NCBI GenBank assembly: GCA_016788425.1
Contig: JAEURQ010000002.1
Location: 1-64,000, forward strand
Origin: Chthonomonas sp.
GTDB taxonomy: Bacteria; Armatimonadota; Fimbriimonadia; Fimbriimonadales; Fimbriimonadaceae
Reading direction: 5' to 3'
Length of the DNA stretch: 64,000 nt
This document shows positions 1-25,466 of this stretch, in pieces. Every line of letters begins with the position of its first letter. The stretch's first letter is position 1. A program made the position numbers and the translations under genes. Below the pieces are notes generated by a model, which made no database searches, had not been told where the DNA came from, and was given only the letters and a program-made list of their open reading frames with translations.

Positions 1-1085
1 ATGCCGCTAAAGAAAAAGATGCCGAGCATCAGCCACAGGAAGCCGCTCCAACTGGCCATTGAGCCTGGATTCGCAAATGGCAGGATTGCAATACTGCACG
101 CCAGCATTCCGATCCCGCTGACCATCGTCACCTTTGCCCCGCCAACTTTGTCTGCGACTGGCCCTGCGGCAGCGCGGACTCCTGCCCCAACCAGCGGCCC
201 CAGAAATGCAAAAGCCAGTGGATCCGGTGCGCCATCGAATCCGCCGTAAAGTTGCTTGATCATTAACGGAAAAGCAGCTGCTAGGCCACTAAACGACCCG
301 AAGGTCATGATGTAGAGCGAGGTCATGACCCACGTGTGCTTTTCCTTGAAGATATCGAGTTGCTCCCTAAAGCTGGCCTGAACCGGCACGTCCCGAAGCC
401 CAAACCAAGCGACCACAGCACCTAAGAGCACAAGAGGCACCCAAATCAGTGCCCCGTTCTGAAGATAGATGTTGCTGGTCGCCCCGGTCTTTGAGTTGGT
501 TAAAGTTTGCGAACTACCAACCAGGACGATCCCGATGATGGCGGGAATAAGAAATTGGGCAACACTCACGCCAAAGTTTCCGATTCCCGCTTGAATCCCG
601 AGCGCCGTCCCCAGCTTGGATTTTGGGAAGAACAACGATGTGCTCGGCATGAATGAACTGAAGTTGCCCCCACCCAAACCCGCGAGAAACGCCAGAACCA
701 AAAAGGTTGACAGCGGAGTCTGAGGGTTCATGACCGCGAACCCCCAGCCCACGCAGGGGATCGCCAAGAGAAGCGTCGATACACTCACGGTCTTGCGCGT
801 TCCAAAAATGGGGACGAGAAAAGTGTGAATGATCCGCAAGGTCCCAGCCGCGAGGCCGGGCATGGCCGTCAGCCAGAACAGTTCCTGGGGCGTGAACTTG
901 AAACCGATGCCAGAGAGTTTTACGACCAGAGCGCTCACCATGAACCAGGTGGAGAAGCTCAGGAGCAGGCAGAACGTGGTAATCCATAATGTCCGCCATG
1001 CCACCGGCTTCGCGGTGGACTCCCAAAAGGTTGGGTCGTTAGGTTGCCATTCTTGAACTTTCTGAGCGTCGGTTGCTGTATTCAT
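1..1085 (-). CDS. narK: NarK-type nitrate/nitrite MFS carrier (3' end cut by window)
   Basis: Major facilitator of the nitrate/nitrite porter family; it moves nitrate in and/or nitrite out across the inner membrane. About 361 residues are visible, starting MNTATDAQ at the ATG complementary to 1083-1085, and the C-terminus lies beyond base 1. A glycine-rich nitrate-signature segment (AGLGGGNFSSFMPS) is followed by a second glycine-rich helix (GIQAGIGNFGVSVAQF), as in NarK and NasA carriers. A palindromic operator (1136-1153) lies upstream, centred 59.5 bases before the ATG. A GAAAAT -10 element at 1115-1110 would place the transcript start at 1103, giving an 18-base leader and the usual -41.5 operator position. 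This is one of two narK genes in the island; direction of transport cannot be told from sequence. Confidence 0.93.
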   Translation of the reverse strand, partial: MNTATDAQKVQEWQPNDPTFWESTAKPVAWRTLWITTFCLLLSFSTWFMVSALVVKLSGIGFKFTPQELFWLTAMPGLAAGTLRIIHTFLVPIFGTRKTVSVSTLLLAIPCVGWGFAVMNPQTPLSTFLVLAFLAGLGGGNFSSFMPSTSLFFPKSKLGTALGIQAGIGNFGVSVAQFLIPAIIGIVLVGSSQTLTNSKTGATSNIYLQNGALIWVPLVLLGAVVAWFGLRDVPVQASFREQLDIFKEKHTWVMTSLYIMTFGSFSGLAAAFPLMIKQLYGGFDGAPDPLAFAFLGPLVGAGVRAAAGPVADKVGGAKVTMVSGIGMLACSIAILPFANPGSMASWSGFLWLMLGIFFFSG

Positions 1086-1135
1086 GAGTCGGACTCTTTG
1101 TCTTTCCCTATTTTCGATGATCCGCTCACGGCGCG

Positions 1136-1153
1136 CTATGATGCCTGTCATAG
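1136..1153. promoter_or_regulatory. Crp/Fnr-type operator 1 (narK1 promoter)
   Basis: The sequence is CTATGATGCCTGTCATAG, with a 5-4-5 core ATGAT-GCCT-GTCAT as in Fnr-family sites. It is identical to the site at 8193-8210. It lies in the 122-base gap between the two narK genes, upstream of the leftward narK. The likely ligand is the Crp/Fnr protein encoded at 13539-14240 (inference). Confidence 0.8.
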
Positions 1154-1207
1154 AATCTCAAATGGCTCAGACCTCTTCGTCCGTGGGGCTCTGGGAAGCG
1201 CGCTGCT

Positions 1208-2695
1208 CTACTCCGTCGCCGGAGCCTGTTTCGCCATCTTTAGGATCGTGACGTGCATCCAAACAAGGCAAACAATGCTAATGAGAGCGAGGAGCAGCCA
1301 GCAAGAGGTCCAGAGTCCGGTCAGTTTTAGCAGGTAGCCAAACAGAATCGGGCAAAAGAAGCCGCCCAGTCCGCCGATGACCCCAACGATTCCACCCACA
1401 ACGCCGACGTCATTCGGAAAATAGTCGGGGATGTGACGATACACGGCGGCTTTCCCGATCCCCATCATGATTCCCGCCAAGAAAACGATAGTCGTAAACA
1501 CCCACACGTTGGCCTGGAAGTAAACGTGAGTCACACCACGGGCAAGTAGCTCGCGCTTCTTCACCTTCTGGCCCACTTGTACCACCGGTTCTTGCCAGGA
1601 CTGACTTCGGGGAAGGATGATCGTGCCCTCAGAAAGGCTCGAACCCTTGCTCGATAGGGTTTGGGTCGAGCCACTGGCCGTCTTCAAAGCATACGACTTG
1701 TCATCAATTTGAACCCGATCTTGACTGACCAGAGTCACGGTTCCAGCTCGATCCGCCAGAACTCCTTCCCCGGGAGACATGATGTCCATGCGTGGCGCGA
1801 TGACGAGCGCGAACAAAACCACGCAGCTTGCCAGCACCCAGTACATCGTGGATCGGGCTCCGAACTTATCGCTCATCCACCCTCCAAGCGCACGAACCAG
1901 CCCGCTCGGAAGGCTAAAGATGCTCGCCATCAGCCCCGCCATCGCGAGGCTCATTCCGTAGACGCTGAGATAGTACGGCACGAGCCATTGAGCTAGGGCT
2001 ACGAACGCCCCAAACACAAGAAAGTAGTACGCGCCGAATCGCCACACTCGAACGGACTTGAGAGGGGCAAGCATGGTGCGAAGTGTCTTTTGGCTCGCTC
2101 CTTCCGTGACCCGATTCTTCGTAAAGACCGCAAACAGGATCGTCATTCCAAAAAGGCATGCCGCGTAAATCAGAGGCAAAGTCCGCCACCCTTCCAATTG
2201 ACTACCTTCTTGAGTGAGTCTTTGCAACGCGAGGGGAGCCAGCAGGGTAGTCAACGCCGAGCCTGCGTTTCCAACACCGAATATCCCTAGCGCGGTTCCT
2301 TGCTTTTCCTTGGGAAAAAACACGGATGTGTAGGCGATGCCGACCGCGAAAGCCGCGCCGCTCATCCCAAAAATGAGCCCCGAGATCACGAGATGGGCGA
2401 AAGTAGTTGCGAAGCTAACGGATGCAACTCCGGCGGTTGCAAGGAGCATCACGCCGATGTAGACCGGCTTGCCCCCAAAACGGTCCGTGAGTAGCCCGAC
2501 CGGCAACCGCATGATCGACCCGGTGAGAATGGGTACACCAAGGAGCCAACCGAGCTCCTCTTTGGAGATCGGAATGACCTGCTTATCGACCAAAAAAGCC
2601 CCCAGCACACCGTACATCGTCCAGACGGCGAAGCACACCGTGAAGGCGATGGTGTTGAGGATGAGCATGCGGTTGGCAAAGGCTCGATCTGGCAT
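1208..2695 (-). CDS. narK: NarK-type nitrate/nitrite MFS carrier with extra soluble insert
   Basis: Second nitrate/nitrite porter of the MFS. I place the start at the ATG at 2695 (MPDRAFANRM), not at upstream TTG or ATG codons, because the longer reading would run through the operator at 2729-2745, whose centre is exactly 41.5 bases from this ATG. The protein is about 495 residues and has the family's FGVGNAGSALTTLLAPLAL and GGIVGVIGGLGGFF helices. It is longer than usual because about 85 hydrophilic residues are inserted between TM9 and TM10, on the predicted periplasmic face. The insert contains GVLADRAGTVTLV and QEPVVQVGQKVKKRELLARG, which resembles a barrel-sandwich (lipoyl-like) fold. 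It is divergent from moaA. Confidence 0.92.
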   Translation of the reverse strand: MPDRAFANRMLILNTIAFTVCFAVWTMYGVLGAFLVDKQVIPISKEELGWLLGVPILTGSIMRLPVGLLTDRFGGKPVYIGVMLLATAGVASVSFATTFAHLVISGLIFGMSGAAFAVGIAYTSVFFPKEKQGTALGIFGVGNAGSALTTLLAPLALQRLTQEGSQLEGWRTLPLIYAACLFGMTILFAVFTKNRVTEGASQKTLRTMLAPLKSVRVWRFGAYYFLVFGAFVALAQWLVPYYLSVYGMSLAMAGLMASIFSLPSGLVRALGGWMSDKFGARSTMYWVLASCVVLFALVIAPRMDIMSPGEGVLADRAGTVTLVSQDRVQIDDKSYALKTASGSTQTLSSKGSSLSEGTIILPRSQSWQEPVVQVGQKVKKRELLARGVTHVYFQANVWVFTTIVFLAGIMMGIGKAAVYRHIPDYFPNDVGVVGGIVGVIGGLGGFFCPILFGYLLKLTGLWTSCWLLLALISIVCLVWMHVTILKMAKQAPATE

Positions 2696-2728
2696 GCCTC
2701 TGTTATGGCCCGCACTCTCGGCGAGGTT

Positions 2729-2745
2729 TATGATGGATATCATGG
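2729..2745. promoter_or_regulatory. Crp/Fnr-type operator 2, shared by narK2 and moaA
   Basis: The sequence is TATGATGGATATCATGG, core ATGAT-GGAT-ATCAT at 2730-2743. Its centre (2736.5) is 41.5 bases from both divergent start codons: the narK2 ATG at 2695 and the moaA GTG at 2778. The -10-like hexamers CATAAC (minus strand, 2707-2702) and CACAAT (2766-2771) fall at -12 to -7 of those codons. This fits two leaderless class II promoters facing away from one site. The same sequence recurs inverted at 12255-12271. Confidence 0.82.
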
Positions 2746-2777
2746 TTCCACGCGGCGGCTTACGGCACAATTGAGTC

Positions 2778-3767
2778 GTGACCCATGCGGATGTGCTGGC
2801 GGATCGGTTTGGTCGATTCCACGACTACCTTCGGGTGTCGATCACGGATCGATGCAATTTCCGGTGCGTCTACTGCATGCCCGAAGAAGGCGTAGTCTGG
2901 CAACCGCGCGAAGAAATTTTGAGATTTGAGGAGATTGAGCGTCTTGCTCGGTTCTTCGTGGAGCGTGGCGTGCGGAAGATTCGGCTTACCGGCGGCGAAC
3001 CAACCCTACGCAAGGGCTACCTTCACCTCGTTGAAGCAATTGCCGCCATCCCGGGTTTGAGGCAACTTGCTCTCACAACCAACGGAACCCGCTTGGCCCA
3101 AGACGCAGGGGCGCTCAAGGCGGCTGGGCTGGCAAGCGTCAATGTTAGTTTGGATACACTGCGGCTGGATCGCTTCGTTGAGATCACGCGGCGAAACGAG
3201 TTACCTAGGGTTCTCCAAGGAATTGAGACCGCCCGTGCGGCGGGGCTAGAGACCAAGATCAACGTGGTGGTTCTTCCGGGAGTGAATGAGGATGAGATCA
3301 TCCACTTCGGCGAGTTTGCCAGCGAGCACAATCTGACCGTCCGGTTCATTGAGTTCATGCCTTTTCTCGACAACGGTTGGAACGCAGACCGGGTCGTCTC
3401 TTCCGCAGAGATTCGAACCCGGCTCTCCGAGCGATTTGAGCTTCGACCCCTGGAATCTGGCGCCTCGGATGTTGCCCGGGAGTATGCAATCGATGGCTCC
3501 GAGGGCCGGGTCGCCTTTGTCTCAAGCGTCACCGAGAGCTTCTGTTCAGGCTGCAACCGCCTTCGCTTGACGGCAGACGGTCAGCTCAAATCGTGTCTAT
3601 TCCTACCGCCGAGCGTCTCGTTACGGGACTTGATTCGAGGGGGAGCTCCCGACGAAGAACTGGAGACAGCTGTCCAATGGTGCCTCGATGGCAAGTGGAG
3701 CGCCCATCCACCGATGCGGAACTGGGCTCAACGAGATAACTTAACCATGGTGCAAATAGGCGGATGA
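2778..3767 (+). CDS. moaA: GTP 3',8-cyclase MoaA
   Basis: Radical SAM enzyme that turns GTP into 3',8-cyclo-GTP, the first step of molybdenum cofactor synthesis. The N-terminal SAM cluster ligands are C26, C30 and C33 (CNFRCVYC), followed by the GGEP motif. The C-terminal second cluster is in SFCSGCNRLRL and the downstream SCLF. The chain ends in GG, as is usual for MoaA. Length 329 is normal. The GTG start is supported by the operator centred 41.5 bases upstream and a CACAAT -10 element, so the mRNA is probably leaderless. It is the first gene of a run in which the next four genes overlap the gene before by about 4 bases. Confidence 0.97.
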   Translation: MTHADVLADRFGRFHDYLRVSITDRCNFRCVYCMPEEGVVWQPREEILRFEEIERLARFFVERGVRKIRLTGGEPTLRKGYLHLVEAIAAIPGLRQLALTTNGTRLAQDAGALKAAGLASVNVSLDTLRLDRFVEITRRNELPRVLQGIETARAAGLETKINVVVLPGVNEDEIIHFGEFASEHNLTVRFIEFMPFLDNGWNADRVVSSAEIRTRLSERFELRPLESGASDVAREYAIDGSEGRVAFVSSVTESFCSGCNRLRLTADGQLKSCLFLPPSVSLRDLIRGGAPDEELETAVQWCLDGKWSAHPPMRNWAQRDNLTMVQIGG

Positions 3768-4666
3768 GAGACGTTTCTTTTAAGAACACAACCAAGCGAA
3801 CGGCCCTCGCTCGCGCTGAACTTACGGCGAGCGCCGAGACGATTCGGCGCGTCCAGAATGGCGATACTCCCAAAGGAGACCCGGTTCCCGTTGCTAAGGT
3901 TGCGGCGATTCAGGCGACGAAAAAAACAACCGAGTGGATTCCTTACTGCCATAACATCCCGATTGAGCATGTAAGGGTGGACTTTGAATTCTTGGCAGAC
4001 CGCATCGCGGTCGAGGTCTTTGTTGTTTCCGTCGCCAAGACCGGGGTCGAGATGGAAGCTATGACCGGGGCCGCTGCTGCCGTGCTCACCCTCTACGACA
4101 TGCTCAAAATGATCGACGACGGCATGGAAATCGTCGGCGTTCGCCTCCTTTCCAAAACGGGTGGGAAGAGCGATCTTCCCCAGCGCAGCGACTGGAACGC
4201 ACAAGTTCTGGTGATGTCAGATCGAGCGCATCGCGGCGATTACGACGACCGAAGCGGCCCAACCCTTGAACAGGCACTAAAGGGCCACGGCGCGGGCTCC
4301 GTCTCGGTGAAAGTTCTGCCCGATGAATCGGAATTACTGGGTAATGAGGTTCGCGCTGCCGCTGACAGAGGTGTTTCGTTGCTCGTGATCAGCGGAGGTA
4401 CGGGCGTTGGTCCTAGGGATATCACTTCTGATACCATCGCACCGCTCCTCGAAAAAAGCCTCCCTGGTGTGGTCGCTGCCTTTCAATCCTACAGCCATTC
4501 AAGGCTACCGACCGCGATGTTTGCCAGGCCGATTGCTGGGATCATTGGAGAGACGGTTGTGCTGGCAATTCCGGGCAGCCCGGGAGCGTGCGAGGATGCC
4601 ATGGCCTGCTTGATGCCGAGCCTGTTGCATGTTCATTCCATGCTCGCTGGGGAGGGCCACCCGTGA
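3764..4666 (+). CDS. moaC: MoaC-MogA/MoaB fusion (molybdenum cofactor synthesis)
   Basis: Bifunctional protein. Residues about 1-135 are MoaC, cyclic pyranopterin monophosphate synthase, with the KKTTEWIPYCHNIPI substrate segment and the KTGVEMEAMTG active-site segment. Residues about 145-300 are a MogA/MoaB molybdopterin adenylyltransferase domain with the SGGTGVGPRDIT motif. The fusion puts ring formation and adenylation on one chain. The ATG overlaps the moaA stop by four bases, which indicates translational coupling. MoaC fusions of this kind are known in other bacteria, so this is unusual rather than new. Confidence 0.95.
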   Translation: MRDVSFKNTTKRTALARAELTASAETIRRVQNGDTPKGDPVPVAKVAAIQATKKTTEWIPYCHNIPIEHVRVDFEFLADRIAVEVFVVSVAKTGVEMEAMTGAAAAVLTLYDMLKMIDDGMEIVGVRLLSKTGGKSDLPQRSDWNAQVLVMSDRAHRGDYDDRSGPTLEQALKGHGAGSVSVKVLPDESELLGNEVRAAADRGVSLLVISGGTGVGPRDITSDTIAPLLEKSLPGVVAAFQSYSHSRLPTAMFARPIAGIIGETVVLAIPGSPGACEDAMACLMPSLLHVHSMLAGEGHP

Positions 4667-5823
4667 TCACGGTCGATGAGGCGCTTTCAATCATTCGCGA
4701 TCATCGCCGGACCATACCAACGGAAGGAGTGGAGCTGATTCACGCCCTGGGCCGGGTTTTGGCGAAAGATGTCGTTTCCCCATTTGATCTTCCGCTCTTT
4801 GATAACTCCGCCATGGACGGCTTCGCCGTCGGGAGTCCAGAGGGGCCCTGGGAGATCGTTGACGAGGTTGCGGCGGGGGCGACGGCTCCAATGGGCATCC
4901 AACCGTGTCAGGCCGTGCGGATCTTCACTGGAGCCCCCGTGCCAAGTAGAACATACGGCATCATCGCACAAGAAGACGCTTCGGAACAAGAAGGCTTGGT
5001 CGTGGGAGAAGTTCGAAAGGGCGGACATGTGCGGTTTCAGGCTGAAGAAGCACCGGCGGGGCATCTCGTCGCGCAAAAGGGAGCGATGTTGACACCACCC
5101 CATCTCGCCGCGTTCGCGAGTTGCGGACTTGCCACAGTTGAAGTCCGCGGTCTGCCAAATGTCACCATTCTTAGCACCGGAAATGAAGTCGTGCCTCCTG
5201 GCCAGTCACTCCAATACGGTCAGATCTTCAATTCCAATGCGACCGCTCTCTCGTCAGCCTTGGCCCTCAGAGGCATCCGCGCACAAGTGCGACACGCTCC
5301 AGATTCCCAAGAAGAGCTACGCGCCCAGATCCACGAGTCGATTCAAAGTTCCGAGCTCCTGATCACGACCGGCGGGGTTTCCGTCGGGGCTCATGACCTC
5401 GTTCGAGCGGCCATGGAGGAGGCGGGTTTCCACGTGAGGTTCCACGGCGTCGCCGTGAAACCAGGCAAGCCAATTGCTTTCGGGGTGCGAGAAGATGGAA
5501 AAGCATGGTTTGGCCTCCCTGGCAATCCTCTCTCGACATGGGTGGGTTATCTGGTTTTCGTCAGTACTTGGCTGGAGGATGAGTTGCCCCGTGAACCCAG
5601 GCGAGTCGCGAGAAAGATGGATAGGAAGCCGGGACGCGAAGAGTTTCTGCCGGCGCAGCGATTACCCAGCGGTGAGGTTACGATCCGCAACCTCATTGGC
5701 TCCCACGCGAACTTTGGCCTTTTGGAGAGCGACGGACTTGTGAGGATCAACCCCGATGTGATCACGTTGGTCCAAGGCGAGCACATCGATTTCTTGCCTT
5801 TCCCATGGAATCGAAACCCATGA
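4663..5823 (+). CDS. moeA: Molybdopterin molybdenumtransferase MoeA
   Basis: Inserts molybdenum into adenylated molybdopterin. It has 386 residues from the GTG at 4663 (MITVDEAL), which overlaps the preceding stop; an ATG at 4588 in the same frame is less likely because it lies deep in the MogA domain. Recognisable segments are FDNSAMDGFAV near the N-terminus, STGNEVVPPGQ and ITTGGVSVGAHDLV in the MoaB-like domain, and KPGKPIAFG with GLPGNPLS in the C-terminal half. It sits between the MogA domain and moaD in the tight cofactor operon. Confidence 0.96.
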   Translation: MITVDEALSIIRDHRRTIPTEGVELIHALGRVLAKDVVSPFDLPLFDNSAMDGFAVGSPEGPWEIVDEVAAGATAPMGIQPCQAVRIFTGAPVPSRTYGIIAQEDASEQEGLVVGEVRKGGHVRFQAEEAPAGHLVAQKGAMLTPPHLAAFASCGLATVEVRGLPNVTILSTGNEVVPPGQSLQYGQIFNSNATALSSALALRGIRAQVRHAPDSQEELRAQIHESIQSSELLITTGGVSVGAHDLVRAAMEEAGFHVRFHGVAVKPGKPIAFGVREDGKAWFGLPGNPLSTWVGYLVFVSTWLEDELPREPRRVARKMDRKPGREEFLPAQRLPSGEVTIRNLIGSHANFGLLESDGLVRINPDVITLVQGEHIDFLPFPWNRNP

Positions 5824-6062
5824 AGACCGTGACAATCCGCTATTTTGCCGTCCTGCGAGAGCGCCGTGGACTCGCCGTTGAGCAGAAAACGACCTCATGC
5901 GAGACCGTTGGAGACTTCGTCGAAACGCTCATCGCAGAGCACCGGCTCGGACTTCCGCCCGCACTAATTCGGGTTGCCATCGAAGGTGAATTTGTCGATC
6001 CAGCTGACCCACTGCAAGAAGGAAGTGAACTTGTCCTGATTCCTCCGGTGGCGGGCGGATGA
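5820..6062 (+). CDS. moaD: Molybdopterin synthase sulfur carrier subunit MoaD
   Basis: Ubiquitin-like small subunit of molybdopterin synthase, which carries sulfur as a C-terminal thiocarboxylate. It has 80 residues and ends in the required Gly-Gly (PPVAGG). The start at 5820 (MKTVTIRYFAVLRERRG) forms an ATGA overlap with moeA. A start at 5805 would add five residues with no family support. The partner MoaE and the activating MoeB domain are encoded together by the next gene. Confidence 0.95.
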   Translation: MKTVTIRYFAVLRERRGLAVEQKTTSCETVGDFVETLIAEHRLGLPPALIRVAIEGEFVDPADPLQEGSELVLIPPVAGG

Positions 6063-7465
6063 AGTTCTCCCTAAGCGATGCCCCGATTGCCGCTGAGCAG
6101 ATAACCCATGATGCGGCGGGCGGATTTGTCGTCTTCGAGGGCAAAGTACGCAATCACGCCGAGGGGCGGTCCGTTGTTGGGCTCGAGTATGAGGCATTCC
6201 CCGAAATGGCCCTTTCCCAGGGGGAAGCGCTTGTTCGAGATGCCATCGAGCGTTTTGGGCTCTCGGAAGCCAGGGTGATCCATCGGGTCGGGCAACTTAC
6301 CATCGGCGACACGGCAGTCGTCGTGCAAACGGCCTCCCCCCACCGGCGAGAAGCCTTTGAAGCATGCGAGTGGATCATGGACCAACTCAAGTGGCGGATT
6401 CCCATTTGGAAGCGCGAAACCTACTCTAGCGGAGTCGCCGAGTGGGTTGTCCCCGGTGAAGCCGCGTCTAGCCCGGTTGACGACGAGATGTTCGCCCGGC
6501 AAATGCGACTTCCCGAAGTCGGACCCGAGGGTCAAGCCGCGCTCGCCGGAGCCAGAGTCTTACTTGTCGGGGTTGGGGGCCTGGCGGCTGGGAGCCTGCC
6601 TTCACTGGTGGGATCAGGCATCGGGACGCTGGGCCTGGTAGACGCCGACCTGGTTGAACTCTCGAATCTTCATCGTCAAACCCTATTTGCCGCTTCGGAT
6701 GTGGGCCGTTTGAAAGTCGAGCGAGCTGCCGTATTCGCGCGTCGCCTCCGGCCCGAGCTGACGGTTCAGACATTTCCTGTGCGCCTCGCTGAAGGTAATG
6801 CCGAACAACTCGTCTCCGGCTACGACTGGATCATAGACGGAACCGATTCCCTAAATACAAAGCTTCTGCTCGACCGAGTTTGCCAGCAACTCGGCCGCCC
6901 CTTGGTCACCGCCAGTGTCCACCAATTTGAGGGGCAACTGATGACGATCCGGCCCGGAGGACCGTGCCTTGCCGATCTTTTTCCCGAACCGCCTCCCGAA
7001 CACTGCGTTGGAACATGCGCCCAATCCGGAGTGCTTGGCGTTGTGCCCTCGCTGATGGGGGTTCTCCAAGCGAACGAAGTCATCAAAGGCATCCTTGGAT
7101 TACCGGTCTTGGATGACAAGTTGCTTTTGTTTGATTTCCGCACCTTAGAAGCTACCACGATCCGTCGCAAATCCTCCGGCGAACTCAGTTCCGGGAGCAG
7201 CAATTGGGACGTAGATGCAACCTCCATCAATCTTGAAAGCTTTGAGTTGGTGGATATTCGGGAGCCTAACGAAACTCCCGAGCTCACCCGGCCCCATCAT
7301 AAGGTGCCTATGGCGGAATGCTACGAAGTCGAATGGCAACGTCCTACCTTGTTCGTTTGCGCCTCCGGAAGGCGTAGTTACCGCCTAGTCGCCGACCTCA
7401 GAGCACGGGGTGTTCGCGGCGTCTTCTCGCTTCAGGGAGGAGTCGAGTGCCTTGAACGTGATTGA
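6059..7465 (+). CDS. moaE: MoaE-MoeB-rhodanese triple fusion
   Basis: 468 residues holding three functions. Residues 1-135 are MoaE, the catalytic subunit of molybdopterin synthase. Residues about 140-360 are a MoeB/ThiF-type E1 that adenylates MoaD, with GVGGLAAGSLPSLVGSG for ATP binding and SNLHRQTLF. Residues about 375-468 are a rhodanese domain with a likely persulfide cysteine in FVCASGRRSYR. Together with MoaD this could run a full sulfuration cycle. In the E1 domain the zinc site looks incomplete: the usual CxxC before LFPEPP reads CLAD, and only the later Cys pair (HCVGTC) remains. The ATG overlaps the moaD stop. Confidence 0.94.
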   Translation: MKFSLSDAPIAAEQITHDAAGGFVVFEGKVRNHAEGRSVVGLEYEAFPEMALSQGEALVRDAIERFGLSEARVIHRVGQLTIGDTAVVVQTASPHRREAFEACEWIMDQLKWRIPIWKRETYSSGVAEWVVPGEAASSPVDDEMFARQMRLPEVGPEGQAALAGARVLLVGVGGLAAGSLPSLVGSGIGTLGLVDADLVELSNLHRQTLFAASDVGRLKVERAAVFARRLRPELTVQTFPVRLAEGNAEQLVSGYDWIIDGTDSLNTKLLLDRVCQQLGRPLVTASVHQFEGQLMTIRPGGPCLADLFPEPPPEHCVGTCAQSGVLGVVPSLMGVLQANEVIKGILGLPVLDDKLLLFDFRTLEATTIRRKSSGELSSGSSNWDVDATSINLESFELVDIREPNETPELTRPHHKVPMAECYEVEWQRPTLFVCASGRRSYRLVADLRARGVRGVFSLQGGVECLERD

Positions 7466-8198
7466 GCCGTGGCTTTATTTTGGAGTCTTCGCCGTGGCCC
7501 TTGGCTACAGCATGGTCGGTCACGGCGGAGCCTCGGGATACCTCGCTTTACTTGCATTCACCGCGATTCCGAGCGCGGTTGGGGCCACCACAGCGCTCGT
7601 TCTCAACGTCTTTGTCGCGGGTATCACCCTGGTGGTATTTGGACGAGCGAAGCATTTTGATTGGAATCTCGCGTGGCCGCTGCTGCTGGGGTCTGTACCT
7701 TTCGCGTTTCTAGGCGGACGCCTCAAGTTCGAAAACCAAGTCCAAGACCTCGTTCTTGCCGCGGTGCTTCTTTATGCCGCTGGAGTGCTGATTTTGAGCG
7801 TTCCGGCTAAAGACGGCGAGAGCCAACCACCGGTTCGTCCTATTCTCGTGGGGTCGGGGGCTGGCATTGGCTTCTTGAGCGGGCTCGTAGGGGTCGGAGG
7901 AGGGATTTTTTTGTCTCCGCTGCTGATCCTCAATCGGTGGGCGCAGCCGCACAAAGTGGCAGCCCTCTCGGCGGTGTTCATTTTCGCGAACTCGCTGGCC
8001 GGTCTCTCGGCTCGACCTTTTGATCTCCTGAGAGAAAGCCTGAGCCAATGGCCTCTAATCACAGTAGGCATTCTTGGCGCAGTCGGTGGCAGCTACTTCG
8101 GAGCCCATCGAGTATCAAGTCTTGCCCTTCGGCGTGCGTTAGGATTGGTTTTGCTACTTGCCGTGGCTAAGCTGCTCCAGAAGGGATTGGGGCTATGA
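7452..8198 (+). CDS. TSUP family (TauE/SafE) permease
   Basis: Membrane protein of about 248 residues with eight predicted helices. The two halves carry the family's glycine-rich repeats (GYSMVGHGGASGYLALL and GFLSGLVGVGGGIFLSPLLIL). TSUP proteins move sulfite, sulfoacetate or similar anions; the substrate here is unknown. The TTG start at 7452 has AGGAG at 7438-7442, nine bases upstream, and lies inside the end of the preceding gene; a GTG at 7458 is the alternative. It is the last gene of the cofactor operon, and its stop codon lies inside operator 3. A role in anion or sulfur supply to the cofactor pathway is a guess from position. Confidence 0.85.
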   Translation: MNVIEPWLYFGVFAVALGYSMVGHGGASGYLALLAFTAIPSAVGATTALVLNVFVAGITLVVFGRAKHFDWNLAWPLLLGSVPFAFLGGRLKFENQVQDLVLAAVLLYAAGVLILSVPAKDGESQPPVRPILVGSGAGIGFLSGLVGVGGGIFLSPLLILNRWAQPHKVAALSAVFIFANSLAGLSARPFDLLRESLSQWPLITVGILGAVGGSYFGAHRVSSLALRRALGLVLLLAVAKLLQKGLGL

Positions 8199-8210
8199 TG
8201 CCTGTCATAG
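8193..8210. promoter_or_regulatory. Crp/Fnr-type operator 3 and leaderless promoter of the nitrate reductase gene
   Basis: The sequence is CTATGATGCCTGTCATAG, identical to operator 1, with core 8195-8208. Its centre (8201.5) is exactly 41.5 bases before the ATG at 8243. TAAACT at 8231-8236 occupies -12 to -7 relative to that ATG, where a -10 element would sit if transcription began at the A of the start codon. The site overlaps the stop codon of the upstream permease gene. Confidence 0.83.
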
Positions 8211-8242
8211 CGGCATTCTCCCAGCGAGACTAAACTTCAGAT

Positions 8243-10426
8243 ATGGCTAAGCCCCCTGTCTCAATCGAGAAGCTGATCGAAGAATTCGGTCCGCACCCCG
8301 CCTACATGCCTCCTGGCGGTTGGGTGGGCAGGGATGATCCCGACAAGTTGGTGAAGACGCACTGTTGCTTCTGCGGAATGCAATGCGGGATCCAGTTAAA
8401 GGTCAAAAAAGACCAAGTGATCGGGTTCGAGCCTTGGGAGGAGTTCCCCTTCAATCGAGGTAAGTTGTGCCCCAAAGGAGTGAAGCGATACCTGCAGGGA
8501 GGCCACCCAGACCGATTGCTTAACCCGATGAAGAACGTGCCGGGACAAGGGTTCATTTCCATCTCATGGGAGGAAGCGTTCAGCACCACCATCAAGGCTA
8601 TCCAAGACGTTCAGGCTAAATACGGCAATGACTCCGTAGCCTTTCTCTCCGGCGTTTCTCTCACCAATGAAAAGAGTTATCTGATTGGAAAATTTGCACG
8701 ACTCGGATTGCAGACCGCCAACCTAGACTACAACGGTCGCCTATGCATGGTGAGCGCAGGGGCGGGTAACAAGAAGGCATTCGGGCTTGACCGAGCTTCA
8801 AACTACTGGGAGGACATCGTTCACGCCGAAGTGATTCTCCTTGCCGGAACGAACGTGGCCGAGTGTTCCCCCATTACGACCGACTACATTTGGCGAGCCC
8901 GGGATCGCGGCGCGAAACTGATCGTGATCGATCCCCGCGTGACGCCCATCGCTCGCACTTGCGATCTTCACCTCCCGGTGCTCCCGGGAACGGATTCGGC
9001 GTTGTTGCTTGGAATTCTACGGGTGCTGATCGAAGAGGGACTGACCAACGAAGAGTTCATCGCGGAATTCACTTCGGGTTGGGAAGAAACGAAAGCAGCG
9101 GCTCTTGCGCTTCCCCTGGAAGAGGCGAGCCGAATCAGCGGGATCAAGGTTGAGGACATCGTTCGAGCCGGAAAAATGTGGGGTGAAGCTAAGACCAGCT
9201 TCCTGATGCACGCGCGGGGTATCGAGCACAGTTCCAAAGGCGTGGACAACGTGGTGAGCTGCATTAACCTCGTTCTCGCAACTGGGCGGATCGGGCGAAA
9301 AGGTTGCGGATATGGAACCATCACGGGGCAAGGCAACGGACAAGGAGGGCGCGAACACGGCCACAAGTGCGACCAGCTCCCCGGCAATCGAGATATCTCA
9401 AACCCGGCTCACCGCGAGTACATCTGCTCGGTTTGGGGCTGCACCGACGAAGAACTCCCCGGCAAAGGCCACACCGCTCCCGAGATCATGGAAATGATCC
9501 ACGCCGGTGAGATCAAAGCCCTTATCTCCATTTGCTTCAACCCGCTGGTCTCGCTGCCAGACTCTAACTTCACCCGCGAGGCACTCAACAAACTAGAGCA
9601 CTACACGGCCATCGACTTCTTCTTGAATGAGACAGCTCACCATGCCGACATCGTGATGGCGGGATCGCTTCATGAAGAGGAGGAAGGAACCAGCACGAGC
9701 GCCGAAGGGCGGGTAATCCGAATCAAAAAGGCGGTCAATCCTCCTGGAAACGCCAAGGCCGACACCGACATCGTCTTGGAACTTGCTCGGCGGCTTGGAC
9801 GAGGCAAGTTTTTTGACCACTTCAAGACGTCGGAGGACATTTTCAACGAGTTGCGAGTGGCGAGCAAGGGCGGGACCGCTGATTATTACGGAATCACCTA
9901 CGAGCGAATCGAGAATGAGCTCGGCGTCTTTTGGCCCTGCCCCGAAATTGGCCACCCAGGCACCCCCCGCCTGTGGGAGGACCTGAAGTTTAAGACCCCA
10001 GACGGCAAAGCCCAGTTCAATGCTGTGAAGTACCGTCCGCCGCTGGAAGAACCGGATGACGAGTACCCGGTGGTTCTGACGACCGGGCGAGTTGTGTCGC
10101 ACTACTTGAGCGGAACACAAACTCGCCGGATCGGAGGGTTGGTTGATCTCTGTTCCGATCCCTACGTGGAGATCCACCCGACGTTGGCCGAACAATATGG
10201 CATTGCCGATAAGGATTGGATGCGCGTCACGAGTCGGCGCGGCGAAGTCGTCCTTCAGGCGAAAGTGGTCACCACGATTCGCCCCGACACCGTTTTCATC
10301 CCGTACCACTGGCCCGGGCGTAAGGCGGCAAATAATCTCACCATCCGTTCCTACGATCCCGTCAGTGGCATCCCTGAATACAAACGAGCCTGCGTGAAGA
10401 TCGAGAAGTCTGAGACACCGCAATGA
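8243..10426 (+). CDS. narB: NarB/NasA-type molybdopterin nitrate reductase, catalytic subunit
   Basis: 727-residue Mo-bisMGD enzyme of the DMSO reductase superfamily, expected to reduce nitrate to nitrite. The N-terminal [4Fe-4S] ligands are C41, C44, C48 and C76. C168 in GRLCMVSAG is the likely molybdenum ligand, and this motif is that of assimilatory-type NarB/NasA enzymes. There is no Tat signal, so it acts in the cytoplasm. There is no C-terminal [2Fe-2S] or flavin domain, so electrons must come from a partner; the co-regulated four-cluster protein at 11616-12221 is the obvious one. Specificity for nitrate is inferred from the two narK genes. The next gene overlaps its stop by four bases. 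Confidence 0.88.
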   Translation: MAKPPVSIEKLIEEFGPHPAYMPPGGWVGRDDPDKLVKTHCCFCGMQCGIQLKVKKDQVIGFEPWEEFPFNRGKLCPKGVKRYLQGGHPDRLLNPMKNVPGQGFISISWEEAFSTTIKAIQDVQAKYGNDSVAFLSGVSLTNEKSYLIGKFARLGLQTANLDYNGRLCMVSAGAGNKKAFGLDRASNYWEDIVHAEVILLAGTNVAECSPITTDYIWRARDRGAKLIVIDPRVTPIARTCDLHLPVLPGTDSALLLGILRVLIEEGLTNEEFIAEFTSGWEETKAAALALPLEEASRISGIKVEDIVRAGKMWGEAKTSFLMHARGIEHSSKGVDNVVSCINLVLATGRIGRKGCGYGTITGQGNGQGGREHGHKCDQLPGNRDISNPAHREYICSVWGCTDEELPGKGHTAPEIMEMIHAGEIKALISICFNPLVSLPDSNFTREALNKLEHYTAIDFFLNETAHHADIVMAGSLHEEEEGTSTSAEGRVIRIKKAVNPPGNAKADTDIVLELARRLGRGKFFDHFKTSEDIFNELRVASKGGTADYYGITYERIENELGVFWPCPEIGHPGTPRLWEDLKFKTPDGKAQFNAVKYRPPLEEPDDEYPVVLTTGRVVSHYLSGTQTRRIGGLVDLCSDPYVEIHPTLAEQYGIADKDWMRVTSRRGEVVLQAKVVTTIRPDTVFIPYHWPGRKAANNLTIRSYDPVSGIPEYKRACVKIEKSETPQ

Positions 10427-10875
10427 AACGGGCCTTTGCGCTGGAGCCATTCTCTCGGGATCATAATGACGGCCTGCACCTCGCTCGGGCGCTAAGAGAG
10501 GAGCGTCTGGACGCTCCTGCACTGGCTCGTGCGACTTGGGAGCGGGAGATTGCCGACCACTTTGCCGAGGAGGAGCGGCTCCTCGGCCCGCTCGCCGGTG
10601 CAGATTCTGCTCGCTTATATAAAGAACACCGGCAGATCGAACAGCTCATCAGCGAATTGCCGACTTCGTGCGTATCGCTTGGGCAAGCTCTCGAAGATCA
10701 CATTCGCTGGGAAGAACGGGTGATGTTTCCCGCCATTGAATCCCGCATGACCCCCGACGAGGAGGCCACCTTGGCTCAAGAAGCTCTCAAAATGGAGCAT
10801 CGCCGGTGGGAAACCTGCCCAAGCCGGGCCGAAATCGTGCAACGCCGACTTGACCGCCTTCATCCCGAAGCCTAA
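10423..10875 (+). CDS. Hemerythrin-like (HHE) diiron protein
   Basis: 150 residues with the four-helix hemerythrin pattern: RDHNDGLHLAR, HFAEEERLL, KEHRQIEQL and HIRWEERVMFPAIE supply the His and Glu ligands of a diiron site. It has no signal peptide and is translationally coupled to the nitrate reductase gene (ATGA overlap). Plausible jobs are nitric oxide or oxygen binding, or protecting or repairing iron-sulfur centres during nitrate reduction; the sequence does not decide. The gene ends three bases from the convergent two-helix gene, and I see no terminator between them. Confidence 0.85.
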   Translation: MKRAFALEPFSRDHNDGLHLARALREERLDAPALARATWEREIADHFAEEERLLGPLAGADSARLYKEHRQIEQLISELPTSCVSLGQALEDHIRWEERVMFPAIESRMTPDEEATLAQEALKMEHRRWETCPSRAEIVQRRLDRLHPEA

Positions 10876-10878
10876 CCA

Positions 10879-11112
10879 CTACTGCATCTTCATCAGCCGC
10901 TTTACCCCGGCGAGCATCCAGATGTTGATGCCCAGAAGCAAGAAGCTGAACGCCGAAGCTTGAATCACCATGCCGGTCTTTCCGGTCAAGATATTTTCAA
11001 GCACCATCACAAACAGCCATAGCTGAATGAGAAACAGGATCATTGCAAACAGCAGGAATCCGACGAAGACGACTGCCTTTTGGCGGCGGCGATGGAATTG
11101 CGGCGTATTCAC
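10879..11112 (-). CDS. Small two-helix membrane protein
   Basis: 77 residues with a basic N-terminus (HRRRQK), two hydrophobic helices at about 13-37 and 48-68, and a basic C-terminal tail. It resembles the small DUF6755-type membrane proteins found in redox operons, but I recognise this only loosely. The GTG start overlaps the Rieske stop codon by one base, so the two are translated together. A role as membrane anchor or assembly factor for the Rieske/ferredoxin module is inferred from position. Confidence 0.75.
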   Translation of the reverse strand: MNTPQFHRRRQKAVVFVGFLLFAMILFLIQLWLFVMVLENILTGKTGMVIQASAFSFLLLGINIWMLAGVKRLMKMQ

Positions 11113-11609
11113 TAGTGGTCACCTTTGATTGCACCAGTCGCCCAGATTTCGCTACCGCGAACTTCGATCTTAACTTGGGGAAGGGGGTGCGGCGGCGGAC
11201 CTTGAACCACGCTACCGTCGTCCAAGGAAAAAGCACCGTTGTGGCATGGGCAGTAGAGGAGCTCACGCTCGTTCTTGACTTCGTACTCCACGGGGCAAGA
11301 AAGGTGAGTGCACCGCCGTTTGAAGGCAACAAATTCGCCGTCCTGCTTCCTGACTAGAATGCACAGATCACCAGGTCGCGGGCAGCTGAAAGCCAGGGCG
11401 GAACCGGGCTTCAAATCTTCAGTCGAGCATATCTTTGCGGCCTCAAACTTGATTTCCTCCCTCGGAATTTGGGCGTAAGCCGCCAGTGCTGCCGTGCCAA
11501 CGGCTACACCACCACTTGCTAACGTGAGAAACTTGAAGAACTCACGGCGGGTCACAAAGTGGTCGTCTTCCCACTCAATCGGAAAATCTTCTTTCAGCTT
11601 GTCGTTCAT
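11112..11609 (-). CDS. Tat-exported Rieske [2Fe-2S] protein
   Basis: 165 residues. A twin-arginine motif (TRREFFKFL, residues 20-28) leads into one hydrophobic segment (29-46) that probably stays as a membrane anchor. The Rieske domain follows, with C100-x-H102 and C120-x2-H123 as cluster ligands and C105 and C122 placed to form the stabilising disulfide. Tat export puts the cluster on the outer face of the inner membrane, like the Rieske subunit of bc complexes, yet no cytochrome b gene is in the window. It lies six bases downstream of the four-cluster ferredoxin gene in one operon. Confidence 0.9.
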   Translation of the reverse strand: MNDKLKEDFPIEWEDDHFVTRREFFKFLTLASGGVAVGTAALAAYAQIPREEIKFEAAKICSTEDLKPGSALAFSCPRPGDLCILVRKQDGEFVAFKRRCTHLSCPVEYEVKNERELLYCPCHNGAFSLDDGSVVQGPPPHPLPQVKIEVRGSEIWATGAIKGDH

Positions 11610-11615
11610 GTTGGA

Positions 11616-12221
11616 TTAACTCTCCACTTGTCGCACGGCGGTCAAAAGGTCAGATCGACGAACGACCGCATCGGGTTTAACCGTGAGTTGTTTTGTTCCT
11701 TGGGGCATCATCAGGTGAACCTTGGTTGTGATCTTCTTGTTGCCAAATATGAACTCGTTGATCGGGGTTCCTGAGCGTTCGGCGGCGAGTTCTTCGGGCG
11801 TCCCGTAGAACAGAGCGCCGGATGGGCACACGGTAGCGCACATGGGTTTCAGTCCGATGGAAGTACGGTCGTAGCACATGTCGCACTTCATCATCTGGTC
11901 CACCTCAACGTCGTACTTGGGCACTCCGAATGGACAAGCGAACAGACAATTTGTGCACCCGATACATCGTGGCTTCAACGAGCTTTGCACCACGCCATCA
12001 GGGGTTTTCTTGATTGCATCCGCCGGGCAAACCATCGCGCACGCTGGCTCGTCGCAATGCATGCAGATGATTGGCGTTGTCTGCACGGTGTCTGCTCGCT
12101 GAACTTGCTCCAAGTGAATCATCGAGACGCCCGGGTGGGTGTCGCACTCGGCACACGCCTGAACGCAGGCATTGCAACCGATGCACCGGCTTGGGTCTAT
12201 GTAGAACTGCCGCTCACTCAC
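11616..12221 (-). CDS. Four-cluster [4Fe-4S] electron-transfer subunit (DmsB/NrfC/NarH type)
   Basis: 201 residues with sixteen cysteines in four cluster-binding sets: [11 protein letters not shown] from residue 13, [26 protein letters not shown] and [21 protein letters not shown]. This is the pattern of beta subunits that feed electrons to molybdopterin enzymes. There is no export signal, so it should meet the cytoplasmic nitrate reductase. The start is a GTG at 12221; operator 4 is centred 42.5 bases upstream, one base more than at the other leaderless promoters. It leads the ferredoxin-Rieske-small membrane protein operon. Confidence 0.92.
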
Positions 12222-12254
12222 AACGACAATGGTTGCACGCCAACCAACCGCACA

Positions 12255-12271
12255 CCATGATATCCATCATA
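12255..12271. promoter_or_regulatory. Crp/Fnr-type operator 4 (ferredoxin-Rieske operon)
   Basis: The sequence is CCATGATATCCATCATA, the exact reverse complement of operator 2, core 12257-12270. Its centre (12263.5) is 42.5 bases upstream of the GTG at 12221 on the minus strand. The -10 region is less clear here than at the other sites (CATTGT on the minus strand near 12231-12226). Confidence 0.78.
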
Positions 12272-12317
12272 CAGCTGTCTGCACTTGGTCGAAGCTAGCG
12301 CACCGGATCATGTCAAA

Positions 12318-12334
12318 TATGACCGATGTCATAG
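12318..12334. promoter_or_regulatory. Crp/Fnr-type operator 5 (porin promoter)
   Basis: The sequence is TATGACCGATGTCATAG, core ATGAC-CGAT-GTCAT at 12319-12332. Its centre (12325.5) is exactly 41.5 bases before the ATG at 12367. AAAGAT at 12355-12360 lies at -12 to -7. The site brings the outer-membrane porin into the same regulon as the nitrate genes. Confidence 0.8.
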
Positions 12335-12366
12335 GATTCTGGGGAGTGATCAGCAAAGATTGACTT

Positions 12367-13536
12367 ATGCCGATTCTTCCTGACCACATGGACAATAGCG
12401 ACCTTCATATAAAGCCGATTCTGGAGTTTCGAGCCAGGTACGAGCGGCGCATGGATGCGGACTTTCAGCCTGACCGGCGTGATAATCGAAGCAACCTGTT
12501 GCTCCGAGGTCGAGTCGGTCTGCAATTGAGCAAAGACGGTGTCACGGGCAGAATCGTGTACCAGCACGCAAGCTCACTCAACTGGCTTCCCGCTGGAAAC
12601 GGTATCGCGATCCGGAGCGATCTTCTTGAGGCCAACGTCAGCTTCAAGAATGGAGCGACTACCTACACTGTTGGGCGGCAACGTTTCGGGTTGGGCAATC
12701 GAAGGCTCATCGGCGAACTCGAGTGGAACAATGTCGCCAACGCTTTAGAGGGCCTTAAGGTTGAGGATCGATCTTGGACCTTCTTCCTGATGCGTGCGGG
12801 CGTATTGCCAGCTCCCTCGAAGAACTTAGTTTTGTCGGGAGTCACCTTCAAGAGGGCGTCCAACACTACGGCCTTCATCATCAAGGTTGATGATGCGAAG
12901 GGGGTAGATCAAACTCGGTATACGCTTTCGAATGAGGGAACGATTAAGCCGAATACGAAATCGACCCTGAATTATCAAATCGCCTTCCAGGCGGGTCATC
13001 AGGATGGGAAAAGCGTGCATGCTTGGGCGGCAAATGGAAGGTACGGGAAGGAAATCACGCCAAAGGTAGAGGCGTACAGCGAACTTAACGTTGCCAGCGG
13101 CGGCAGTAGCAACCGAGTCAATGCCACTTTTGATCAGCTGTACCCCAGCGGACATGATCGACTTGGATTAATGGACACAACTGGGTGGAAGAACATCGTT
13201 TCTGCGGCCGCTGGGCTGAAGTTCAAGCCAAGCGCAAATTCGTCGCTGCGGCTCAGCTACACCTGGTTGCAGCTTTACGATAAGCATGATGCTTGGTACG
13301 GAGTAGGCGGAGCGATCAATTCCTTTGGCACAACGCTTTACAGAGATCCAACCGGCAACTCCGGTCGCGATATTGGGCAAGAGTTCAGCCTGGATTACTC
13401 TTCGACGATGGCCAATGGTTTAACCTTGAGTTCTGGCGCTGGCGTTTTTCTTCCGGGCCGATTTGTGAAGTCCTTCGGTGGAGGCAGATCGGGAAATCAG
13501 ACCTTCGGCTACTTCATGCTCGGTTGGAAATTCTAA
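12367..13536 (+). CDS. Alginate-export-type outer-membrane beta-barrel porin
   Basis: 389 residues of alternating amphipathic strands, with FRARYERR near the start, repeated short Gly/Asn turns and a C-terminal aromatic ending (FGYFMLGWKF), as in Gram-negative barrels of the alginate-export family. A role in nitrate or nitrite passage through the outer membrane is inferred from regulation only. Oddly no signal peptide is present: the chain begins MPILPDHMDNSDLHIKP, an in-frame TGA sits at 12361-12363, and neither other frame upstream encodes a hydrophobic segment. The operator at -41.5 supports this start, so either export is unconventional or the 5' end is damaged. Confidence 0.8.
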   Translation: MPILPDHMDNSDLHIKPILEFRARYERRMDADFQPDRRDNRSNLLLRGRVGLQLSKDGVTGRIVYQHASSLNWLPAGNGIAIRSDLLEANVSFKNGATTYTVGRQRFGLGNRRLIGELEWNNVANALEGLKVEDRSWTFFLMRAGVLPAPSKNLVLSGVTFKRASNTTAFIIKVDDAKGVDQTRYTLSNEGTIKPNTKSTLNYQIAFQAGHQDGKSVHAWAANGRYGKEITPKVEAYSELNVASGGSSNRVNATFDQLYPSGHDRLGLMDTTGWKNIVSAAAGLKFKPSANSSLRLSYTWLQLYDKHDAWYGVGGAINSFGTTLYRDPTGNSGRDIGQEFSLDYSSTMANGLTLSSGAGVFLPGRFVKSFGGGRSGNQTFGYFMLGWKF

Positions 13537-13538
13537 TC

Positions 13539-14240
13539 CTATCGGACGGCCTGAAGCAATTTGTCCAGATCCTTTACGAGGATATGCCGCGCCTGGGTTT
13601 CAATCCACTCCTGCTTCTGCCAACGGCTCATGATGCGGATCGTGGACTCCACGGTCGTACCTGCGAGCTCAGCGATTTCTTGCCTCGTGAGGGGAACGTC
13701 CAACAAAAGCCCCTCTGGGAGCTCTCGCCCAAACGACCGTGTGAGCACGAGAAGCACGGCTGCCACACGTTGCTCAACCGTCCCTACCGAGAGGTGCGCA
13801 ATCAGATCAAATGACTGTCTTAGCCGGTGCGCAGTGCGCCTGAAAACCTGTTCTTTCAAAACGACGTTCTTCTCATAGACCGGCAAAAAGCCTGCCTTCG
13901 GCACTTTGAGATACCAGGTTCCGGTGATCGCTTTGGCTGACTGCGGGCACCCTGTGCCATCGATGGCCCCTAACAAACCGAACACGTGCCCAGGCCCCAT
14001 GATTTCCGTCGTGATCTCCTGATGGCTTGGTCCTAGTGTAGTCATCTTGATGAACCCGGTTCCCACCACACCAAAAAAAGAGACGCTGCTACCGCTAAGC
14101 CAAATCGTCTCGCCCTTTTCGGCATGCGCCATGCGAGAATTCACCACAAGCTCGCCGACCTGATCATCTGTGAGGCCTCCCAGCAGCGTGCTGCTCAAGA
14201 AGACCTCCCGGCGCGACGGTGCTTCTGCTTGCTCAGACAT
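13539..14240 (-). CDS. Crp/Fnr-family transcription regulator of the nitrate island
   Basis: 233 residues: a cyclic-nucleotide-binding-like sensor domain (about 15-125), a dimerisation helix, and a winged helix-turn-helix at about 184-214 with the recognition helix in TTVESTIRIMSRW. It lacks the N-terminal cysteine cluster of Fnr, so it is not an Fnr-type oxygen sensor; NO or redox sensing of the NnrR/DNR kind is possible. It lies beside the operators with Fnr spacing (ATGAY-N4-RTCAT) and is their likely ligand. CAAACT at 14252-14247 stands at -12 to -7 of its ATG, so its own mRNA may also be leaderless. No operator copy is seen at its promoter. Confidence 0.9.
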   Translation of the reverse strand: MSEQAEAPSRREVFLSSTLLGGLTDDQVGELVVNSRMAHAEKGETIWLSGSSVSFFGVVGTGFIKMTTLGPSHQEITTEIMGPGHVFGLLGAIDGTGCPQSAKAITGTWYLKVPKAGFLPVYEKNVVLKEQVFRRTAHRLRQSFDLIAHLSVGTVEQRVAAVLLVLTRSFGRELPEGLLLDVPLTRQEIAELAGTTVESTIRIMSRWQKQEWIETQARHILVKDLDKLLQAVR

Positions 14241-25142: not shown

Positions 25143-25466
25143 ATGCGTCGCGCATTTACTCTCATCGAAATCATGATCGTGGTCATGATCATCGGCGTCC
25201 TGCTGGCCGTCGCAGTTCCCTCGTGGGTTCGTTCTCGTGAGGTAACGCGTCGCAACGCCTGCCTCGAGAACATGAAAAAGATCGAGGAGGCGAAGGATAT
25301 CTACGCCATGGAGAATCGACTTTCAACCGGCGACGCGGTGACGAACGCGCAGATTGCGCCGCAGTTCATCAAGGGCATTTTTCCGACTTGCCCGAGCGCG
25401 GGCACGTACACCACGAACGTCATCGGGACGCATCCCGATTGTAGCGAGCACGGCGTGCTCCCCTAA
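25143..25466 (+). CDS. Type IV prepilin-like protein
   Basis: 107 residues with a typical prepilin N-terminus (MRRAFTLIEIMIVVMIIGVLLAVAVPSW). Downstream, RRNACLENMKKIEEAKDIYAMEN and a PTCPSAGTY segment with two further Cys resemble the small ComGC/GspG-like pilins common in this kind of genome. It is paralogous in layout to the preceding gene. The terminator at 25475-25499 follows nine bases after its stop. Confidence 0.92.
   Translation: MRRAFTLIEIMIVVMIIGVLLAVAVPSWVRSREVTRRNACLENMKKIEEAKDIYAMENRLSTGDAVTNAQIAPQFIKGIFPTCPSAGTYTTNVIGTHPDCSEHGVLP

Follow-up and report, generated by a model that had tools for sequence, protein, structure and literature searches.

What regulates the nitrate genes of the Chthonomonas sp. 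stretch analyzed here (positions 1 to 64,000 of contig JAEURQ010000002.1, assembly GCA_016788425.1; hereafter the window), and why should five copies of one palindrome, ATGAY-N4-RTCAT, lie upstream of them at almost the same distance from the start codons? Based on the sites themselves, their spacings and conservation, the placement of -10 hexamers and the co-occurrence of the motif with a regulator gene, all of which can be observed directly, we consider it very likely that the Crp/Fnr protein encoded at 13539-14240 binds the five palindromes and, as a class II activator, switches on nitrate-reduction genes that are largely leaderless, with binding, activation and 5′ ends of the transcripts being predictions of this reading.

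The five palindromes listed in a first-pass annotation of this DNA are all exact matches to the consensus (Table 1). Their description as near-identical was looser than the sites warrant, as the half-sites are common to all five but an identical 14-mer is found in only two. Seven exact palindromes are present in the window, compared with 0.20 expected from shuffled sequences, and the two outside the set of five (at 25173 and 39847) are both inside open reading frames (ORFs). A search of the whole 2.67 Mb genome, proposed beforehand as a check, returned 28 exact palindromes, of which the promoter-placed ones are exactly the five of the window; the remaining 23 are nearly all within ORFs, and none is promoter-placed. 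The palindrome at C1:371785 was considered as a promoter site and rejected, as it overlaps the start codon of an ORF (MITIIAL...). In the sampled stretches covered by our genome-wide promoter scans (599 kb in total), a scan that tolerated two mismatches and required both a start codon at 41.5 or 42.5 bases and a -10 hexamer found no site beyond those already known.

The candidate regulator scored above the cut-offs of both PF00027 (44.5 bits) and PF13545 (63.5 bits), which places it in the Crp/Fnr superfamily, and it is the only protein in this assembly above the HTH_Crp_2 cut-off. Its helix-turn-helix region can be aligned gap-free with Crp-family proteins of solved structure, and the recognition helix reads TTVESTIR. 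In an alignment of 60 homologues, residues E198, I201, R202, and S205 are invariant, T195 and T196 are nearly so, and the helix pattern G-T-T-x-E-x-x-I-R is found in 59-60 of the 60. The single cysteine, at position 98, is retained in 38 homologues. This residue is followed by an invariant proline. We rejected it as a general heme ligand, since 21 homologues have F or Y at the position; the lack of any invariant Cys or His in the alignment is weak evidence against a conserved heme ligand.

The assignment of the palindromes to this protein gains support from its relatives. At a threshold of E 1e-20, 76 of 291 Armatimonadota genomes encode a homologue. Within the same family, the extended 16-mer TATGAYN4RTCATA occurs in 53 of 55 genomes with a homologue (mean of 3.6 copies) vs. 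7 of 30 genomes without one (mean 0.33), while the reversed control pattern has means of 0.05 and 0.23, respectively. In more distant relatives, a palindrome lies in front of the regulator's own gene. This was observed in locus L025, where the regulator is 49% identical, with CACAAT at 29.5; in L124, where the start of the regulator gene lies 42.5 from a palindrome; and in L131, which belongs to a different family within the phylum, where a site at 9906 is 42.5 from the start of the regulator ORF at 9955. L153, which represents a further family, has a homologue of 29% identity that shares the helix pattern, and two 16-mers are found no more than 13 kb away from it.

Several observations weigh against the activator reading. 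The significance of the difference in 16-mer counts (Mann-Whitney p 9.5e-13) is optimistic because related genomes are not independent, and the seven genomes that have the 16-mer without a homologue do not follow the rule. Genomes G147 and G149 (loci L114 and L115) encode a homologue with the standard helix yet have no exact 16-mer, perhaps reflecting degenerate sites or a lost regulon. The -10 hexamers of the porin and ferredoxin genes are weak, with three of six matches. Finally, relatives encode a second, divergent Crp/Fnr paralogue past narK1 (L154:2502-3059, L158:2883-3533, L159:7022-7567, L160:6602-7147, L161:6980-7570) that is about 30% identical and has a recognition helix of the same type, TTVESAIR (e.g., in G110 and G138), and the two proteins could share sites; because our contig breaks at narK1 (it starts at window base 1, inside this gene), a copy of the paralogue may be unassembled here. 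That this second protein is the main binder, or that both bind in turn, for example one in response to oxygen and the other to nitric oxide (NO), seems unlikely to us, even though G117 and G142 still have the motif and encode no homologue other than a distant one (28-30% identity). Genomes G151, G152, and G143 each encode just one homologue at E 1e-20, it is of the close type, and the motif is kept, with G151 and G152 keeping the whole set of sites read. Furthermore, it is the close-type regulator that is encoded beside the sites and that is itself preceded by a palindrome in the three distant loci described above.

The geometry of the sites argues for class II activation. On recomputation, the distance from palindrome centre to start codon is 41.5 for narK2, moaA, the nitrate reductase gene and the porin gene, and 42.5 for the ferredoxin gene, in agreement with the first-pass annotation, and the hexamers TAAACT, CACAAT, and CATAAC do fall at -12 to -7 as it had proposed; for narK1 the distance is 59.5. 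Each of the six promoters in the window has a -10-like hexamer whose first base is 29.5 bp away from the centre of the palindrome. Individual hexamers often deviate from TANNNT (CACAAT, CATAAC, AAAGAT, and AACCAT), and the 42.5 spacing of the ferredoxin gene results from one extra base between its -10 and its start codon. The invariant is the distance from palindrome centre to -10, and the start-codon distance follows from it. No -35-like element was detected above control at the palindrome promoters. A centre at -41.5, a fixed -10 spacing and a poor -35, the properties of activator-dependent class II promoters, are all seen here, with positions reckoned from a predicted transcript start.

The same spacings recur among relatives. 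Near the regulator homologues we obtained, after removal of similar sequences, 111 unique sites, of which 99 are intergenic or at an ORF edge and 12 are deep in ORFs. At the 99 sites, -10-like hexamers (at least four matches to TATAAT, with A at the second base) start at 29.5 in 54 cases and at 30.5 in 19, vs. about four at other distances, providing independent backing for class II geometry. ATG codons that open at least 90 codons are found at 41.5 in 16 cases and at 42.5 in 21, vs. a background of about two, and the 12 sites deep in ORFs have no spacing peak. The probable source of an additional ATG peak at 33.5 (nine cases) is a -10 with AT as its last two bases and G as the next. Short leaders also occur, as narK1 and many targets in the family have start codons at 44.5 to 60.5.

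Individual promoters are conserved in relatives, among which are homologous loci with a regulator 89-98% identical to that of the window. The nitrate reductase promoter retains the 41.5 spacing and a -10 of TAAACT or TAGACT in seven of seven genomes, and in L023 the palindrome and GACTAGACT (elsewhere GACTAAACT) are kept while the stretch between them has diverged. The ferredoxin promoter has the 42.5 spacing in seven of seven genomes, with AACCAT invariant. The porin palindrome is kept, with one mismatch in L020, as is AAAGAT in L019-L023. Among eight relatives, the -10 of narK2 is CATAAC in seven (CAAAAC in L161) and that of moaA is CACAAT in seven (TACCAT in L161). The proposal that one site serves two divergent genes is supported at narK2 and moaA, where each side has a hexamer and the 41.5 spacing, both in the window and in the seven relatives L154-L160; L024, apparently the same genome as L160, likewise has 41.5 on both sides, and further symmetric two-sided sites, at 42.5, were found in L129 and L151. 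For narK1, the -10 (GAAAAT or GACAAT) is fixed at 29.5 in L154-L161 while the start codon shifts from 57.5 to 60.5, as would be expected if the 18-base leader proposed for this gene is real.

We propose that a dimer of the regulator at -41.5 would cover the -35 region and recruit RNA polymerase to the weak -10 hexamer located 29.5 bp downstream. The transcript would then start about 12 bases past the beginning of the -10, which for five of the six genes would be the start codon (within about one base), and these five mRNAs would therefore be leaderless, while the narK1 transcript would carry roughly 18 leader bases. Both narK2 and moaA would be driven from the site between them, and the regulon would comprise two NarK transporters, the molybdenum-cofactor operon, the molybdopterin nitrate reductase, the FeS/Rieske proteins and the porin. 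The regulator probably responds to nitrate, NO or low oxygen.

The possibility that mRNAs start at the start codon was examined beyond the regulon. Among 312 putative operon heads in the sampled 599 kb, TANNNT occurs at -12 in 21 and at -13 in 10, compared with 2.8 on average at other positions, and none of these 31 heads has a Shine-Dalgarno core. For genes close behind another gene, TANNNT at -12 was found in 11 vs. 0.9. As start calling was simple (first ATG), the absolute fractions of leaderless genes are rough. TAAACT, the -10 of the nitrate reductase gene, is also the commonest -12 hexamer of the leaderless-type genes of this genome. Leaderless genes therefore appear to be common here independently of the palindrome, and the genome-wide peak at -12 together with the family-wide ATG peak at 41.5/42.5 speaks for transcripts that begin at the start codon. 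Leaderless genes with a -10 region adjoining the ORF have been described in Deinococcus-Thermus and Actinobacteria (PMC3160421, PMC12340547), in which leaderless expression is best documented; a word search of the text of these two papers found no mention of Armatimonadetes. The genes of this study share with those a TANNNT located at about -12 relative to the start codon and differ in belonging to Armatimonadota and in being combined with an activator site whose distance is fixed. Leaderless expression would be compatible with class II activation, as indicated on both flanks of one site.

A variant of this interpretation retains the regulon with short leaders throughout, such that the true transcript starts lie several bases upstream and 41.5 is a constraint related to the ribosome or start codon. 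Leaders are clear for narK1 and the family targets noted above, and base-exact transcript starts cannot come from sequence. However, both the -10 peak at -12, which is independent of the palindromes, and the ATG peak fit starts at the codon, and +1 at that position is what class II spacing would lead one to expect, leaving this variant a rather small chance of being correct. It is feasible too that the palindromes are operators at which a repressor blocks RNA polymerase, since the position of a site gives no sign of the direction of regulation and a protein at -41.5 would overlap a -35 element. Against this, no -35-like element rose above control, the -10 hexamers are weak as in activator-dependent promoters, and repression has no need of the rigid 29.5/30.5 spacing, and we regard repression as very improbable. 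That the palindromes arose by chance, or as repeats carried along when promoters were copied, as the two identical 14-mers might suggest, can practically be dismissed given the excess of sites in the window, the retention of their positions in diverged relatives, the persistence of the family-wide peaks after similar sequences were removed and the co-occurrence with the regulator.

The proposed activator differs from both FNR proper and CRP. FNR proper has four cysteines that ligate a 4Fe-4S cluster and recognizes the box TTGAT-N4-ATCAA, whereas the protein of the window has one cysteine and sites of the form ATGAY-N4-RTCAT, and scored 60.2 bits against the FNR model NF008365 (cut-off 228). 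CRP differs in its TGTGA half-site, and its model, NF008732, gave 37.6 bits against a cut-off of 266. The FNR recognition helix has the form E209-x-x-S212-R213, and isoleucine in place of this serine, the residue that in FNR reads the outer base, may account for the outer A of the half-site. Positions equivalent to R180 and E181 of CRP have been related to half-site bases, and the boxes of FNR and DNR (CTTGATnnnnATCAAG) and the HcpR motif of delta-proteobacteria (wyTTGACnnnnGTCAArw) have been defined (PMC1274295). The consensi of the HcpR, DNR, and NnrR subgroups differ from the motif described here. FNR and DNR regulons share with ours a Crp/Fnr regulator, a 5-4-5 palindrome, the -41.5 geometry and targets in nitrogen-oxide respiration; our system departs from them in the outer base (A rather than T), the helix E-x-x-I-R, the lack of Fe-S cysteines and the predicted leaderless mRNAs. 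HcpR has an identical TGAC-N4-GTCA core and a related theme of nitrogen-oxide stress and respiration, but the outer T/A is replaced here by A/T and the targets are NarK, nitrate reductase and cofactor genes rather than hcp and frdX. A CRP/FNR meta-regulon of a partial-nitritation anammox reactor, built with the known motifs FNR, CRP, DNR, NnrR, and MalR (PMC8510549), is similar in that Crp/Fnr proteins control the nitrogen metabolism of bacteria from a reactor, and neither Armatimonadota nor this motif occurs in its text. In the open literature, of which our coverage was partial, we found no Crp/Fnr regulator with ATGAC/GTCAT sites or leaderless denitrification targets.

We lean toward the broader view that Armatimonadota possess a lineage-wide Crp/Fnr subfamily with altered DNA reading (Ser to Ile, TTGAY to ATGAY) that controls nitrogen-oxide metabolism through fixed modules of activator site, -10 and start codon. 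The 71 predicted targets in relatives fit this theme: 16 NarK, 11 molybdopterin reductases, 6 porin-family, 5 DmsB-like and 5 carboxymuconolactone-decarboxylase-like (CMD) proteins, 4 ResB, 3 MoaA, 3 MobA, 2 globins, 2 NnrS and 1 multiheme cytochrome, although the sites were drawn from the vicinity of regulators and hence of such genes. If such modules hold, the regulator, transcript start and translation start could be deduced for uncultured bacteria from their DNA sequence alone. The regulator, its DNA code and the predicted transcript starts would constitute a testable regulon in a phylum with scant molecular genetics, and coupling of the helix change (E-x-x-S-R to E-x-x-I-R) to the half-site change is a specific prediction for the well-studied Crp/Fnr code.

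Table 1. Genes, palindromes and -10-like hexamers of the nitrate cluster in window coordinates.
Feature	Position	Strand	Details
narK1, NarK-family nitrate/nitrite transporter	1..1085	-	PRK15034.1 285.8 bits, TIGR00886 263.7 bits; cut by contig edge
-10-like GAAAAT, narK1	1110..1115	-	-12 to -7 of predicted transcript start 1103; 18-base leader
Palindrome 1	1138..1151		ATGATGCCTGTCAT, extended TATGAT-N4-GTCATA; for narK1, centre 59.5 from ATG 1085
narK2, NarK-like transporter	1208..2695	-	TIGR00886 184 bits; predicted leaderless
-10-like CATAAC, narK2	2702..2707	-	
Palindrome 2	2730..2743		Common to divergent narK2 and moaA; 41.5 to either start codon
-10-like CACAAT, moaA	2766..2771	+	
moaA (GTG start)	2778..3767	+	TIGR02666 368 bits; heads molybdenum-cofactor operon
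Palindrome 3	8195..8208		ATGATGCCTGTCAT; 41.5 from nitrate reductase ATG
-10 TAAACT, nitrate reductase	8231..8236	+	
Molybdopterin nitrate reductase, NasC/NasA-like	8243..10426	+	NF047855 805.6 bits (closest model; under 1100 cut-off); predicted leaderless
Hemerythrin-domain gene	10423-10875		Overlaps nitrate reductase gene
Rieske protein	11112-11609		Comes after DmsB-like gene
DmsB-like 4Fe-4S (ferredoxin) gene, GTG start	11616..12221	-	
-10-like AACCAT, ferredoxin gene	12229..12234	-	-13 to -8 of start codon
Palindrome 4	12257..12270		42.5 from ferredoxin GTG
Palindrome 5	12319..12332		41.5 from porin ATG
-10-like AAAGAT, porin	12355..12360	+	Weak
Outer-membrane porin, Alginate_exp family	12367..13536	+	PF13372 99.3 bits
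Crp/Fnr regulator	13539..14240	-	PF13545 and PF00027; predicted activator

The operon headed by moaA extends to about 8198 and, with the downstream names assigned from ORF order, would consist of moaA, moaCB, moeA, moaD, moaE-moeB and a TauE/SafE-like gene. The genome has no family match to NIR_SIR or NrfA, for which control matches were obtained in 11 of 14 and 1 of 14 genomes, respectively, and together with the NasC/NasA-like reductase, the DmsB-like protein and the Rieske protein (8243-12221) this suggests nitrate reduction that ends at nitrite. Some relatives may reduce nitrite further, as hinted at by a NapC/NrfH-type cytochrome near a palindrome (L161:9710-10101, G138). In L154, the cluster past narK1 includes a weak match to nitrate reductase gamma (526-1566, minus strand; below the family cut-off) beside a palindrome-controlled CMD-family gene, and this protein might anchor the NasA-like reductase in the membrane. 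The absence of NIR_SIR and NrfA matches and the gamma-like neighbor make a respiratory or nitrite-exporting role more likely than assimilation, within the limit set by the contig end.

The genes that lie downstream of narK1 in relatives, including MobA and an apparent membrane protein of about 457 residues, were not found in this assembly, in which a gap and a true absence are indistinguishable. The membrane protein (L154:3157-4530, minus strand, with equivalents in L156-L161) has no Pfam match and is a conserved palindrome target of the leaderless type; its promoter has GATAAT at 29.5, and the start codon lies mostly at 41.5 to 43.5.

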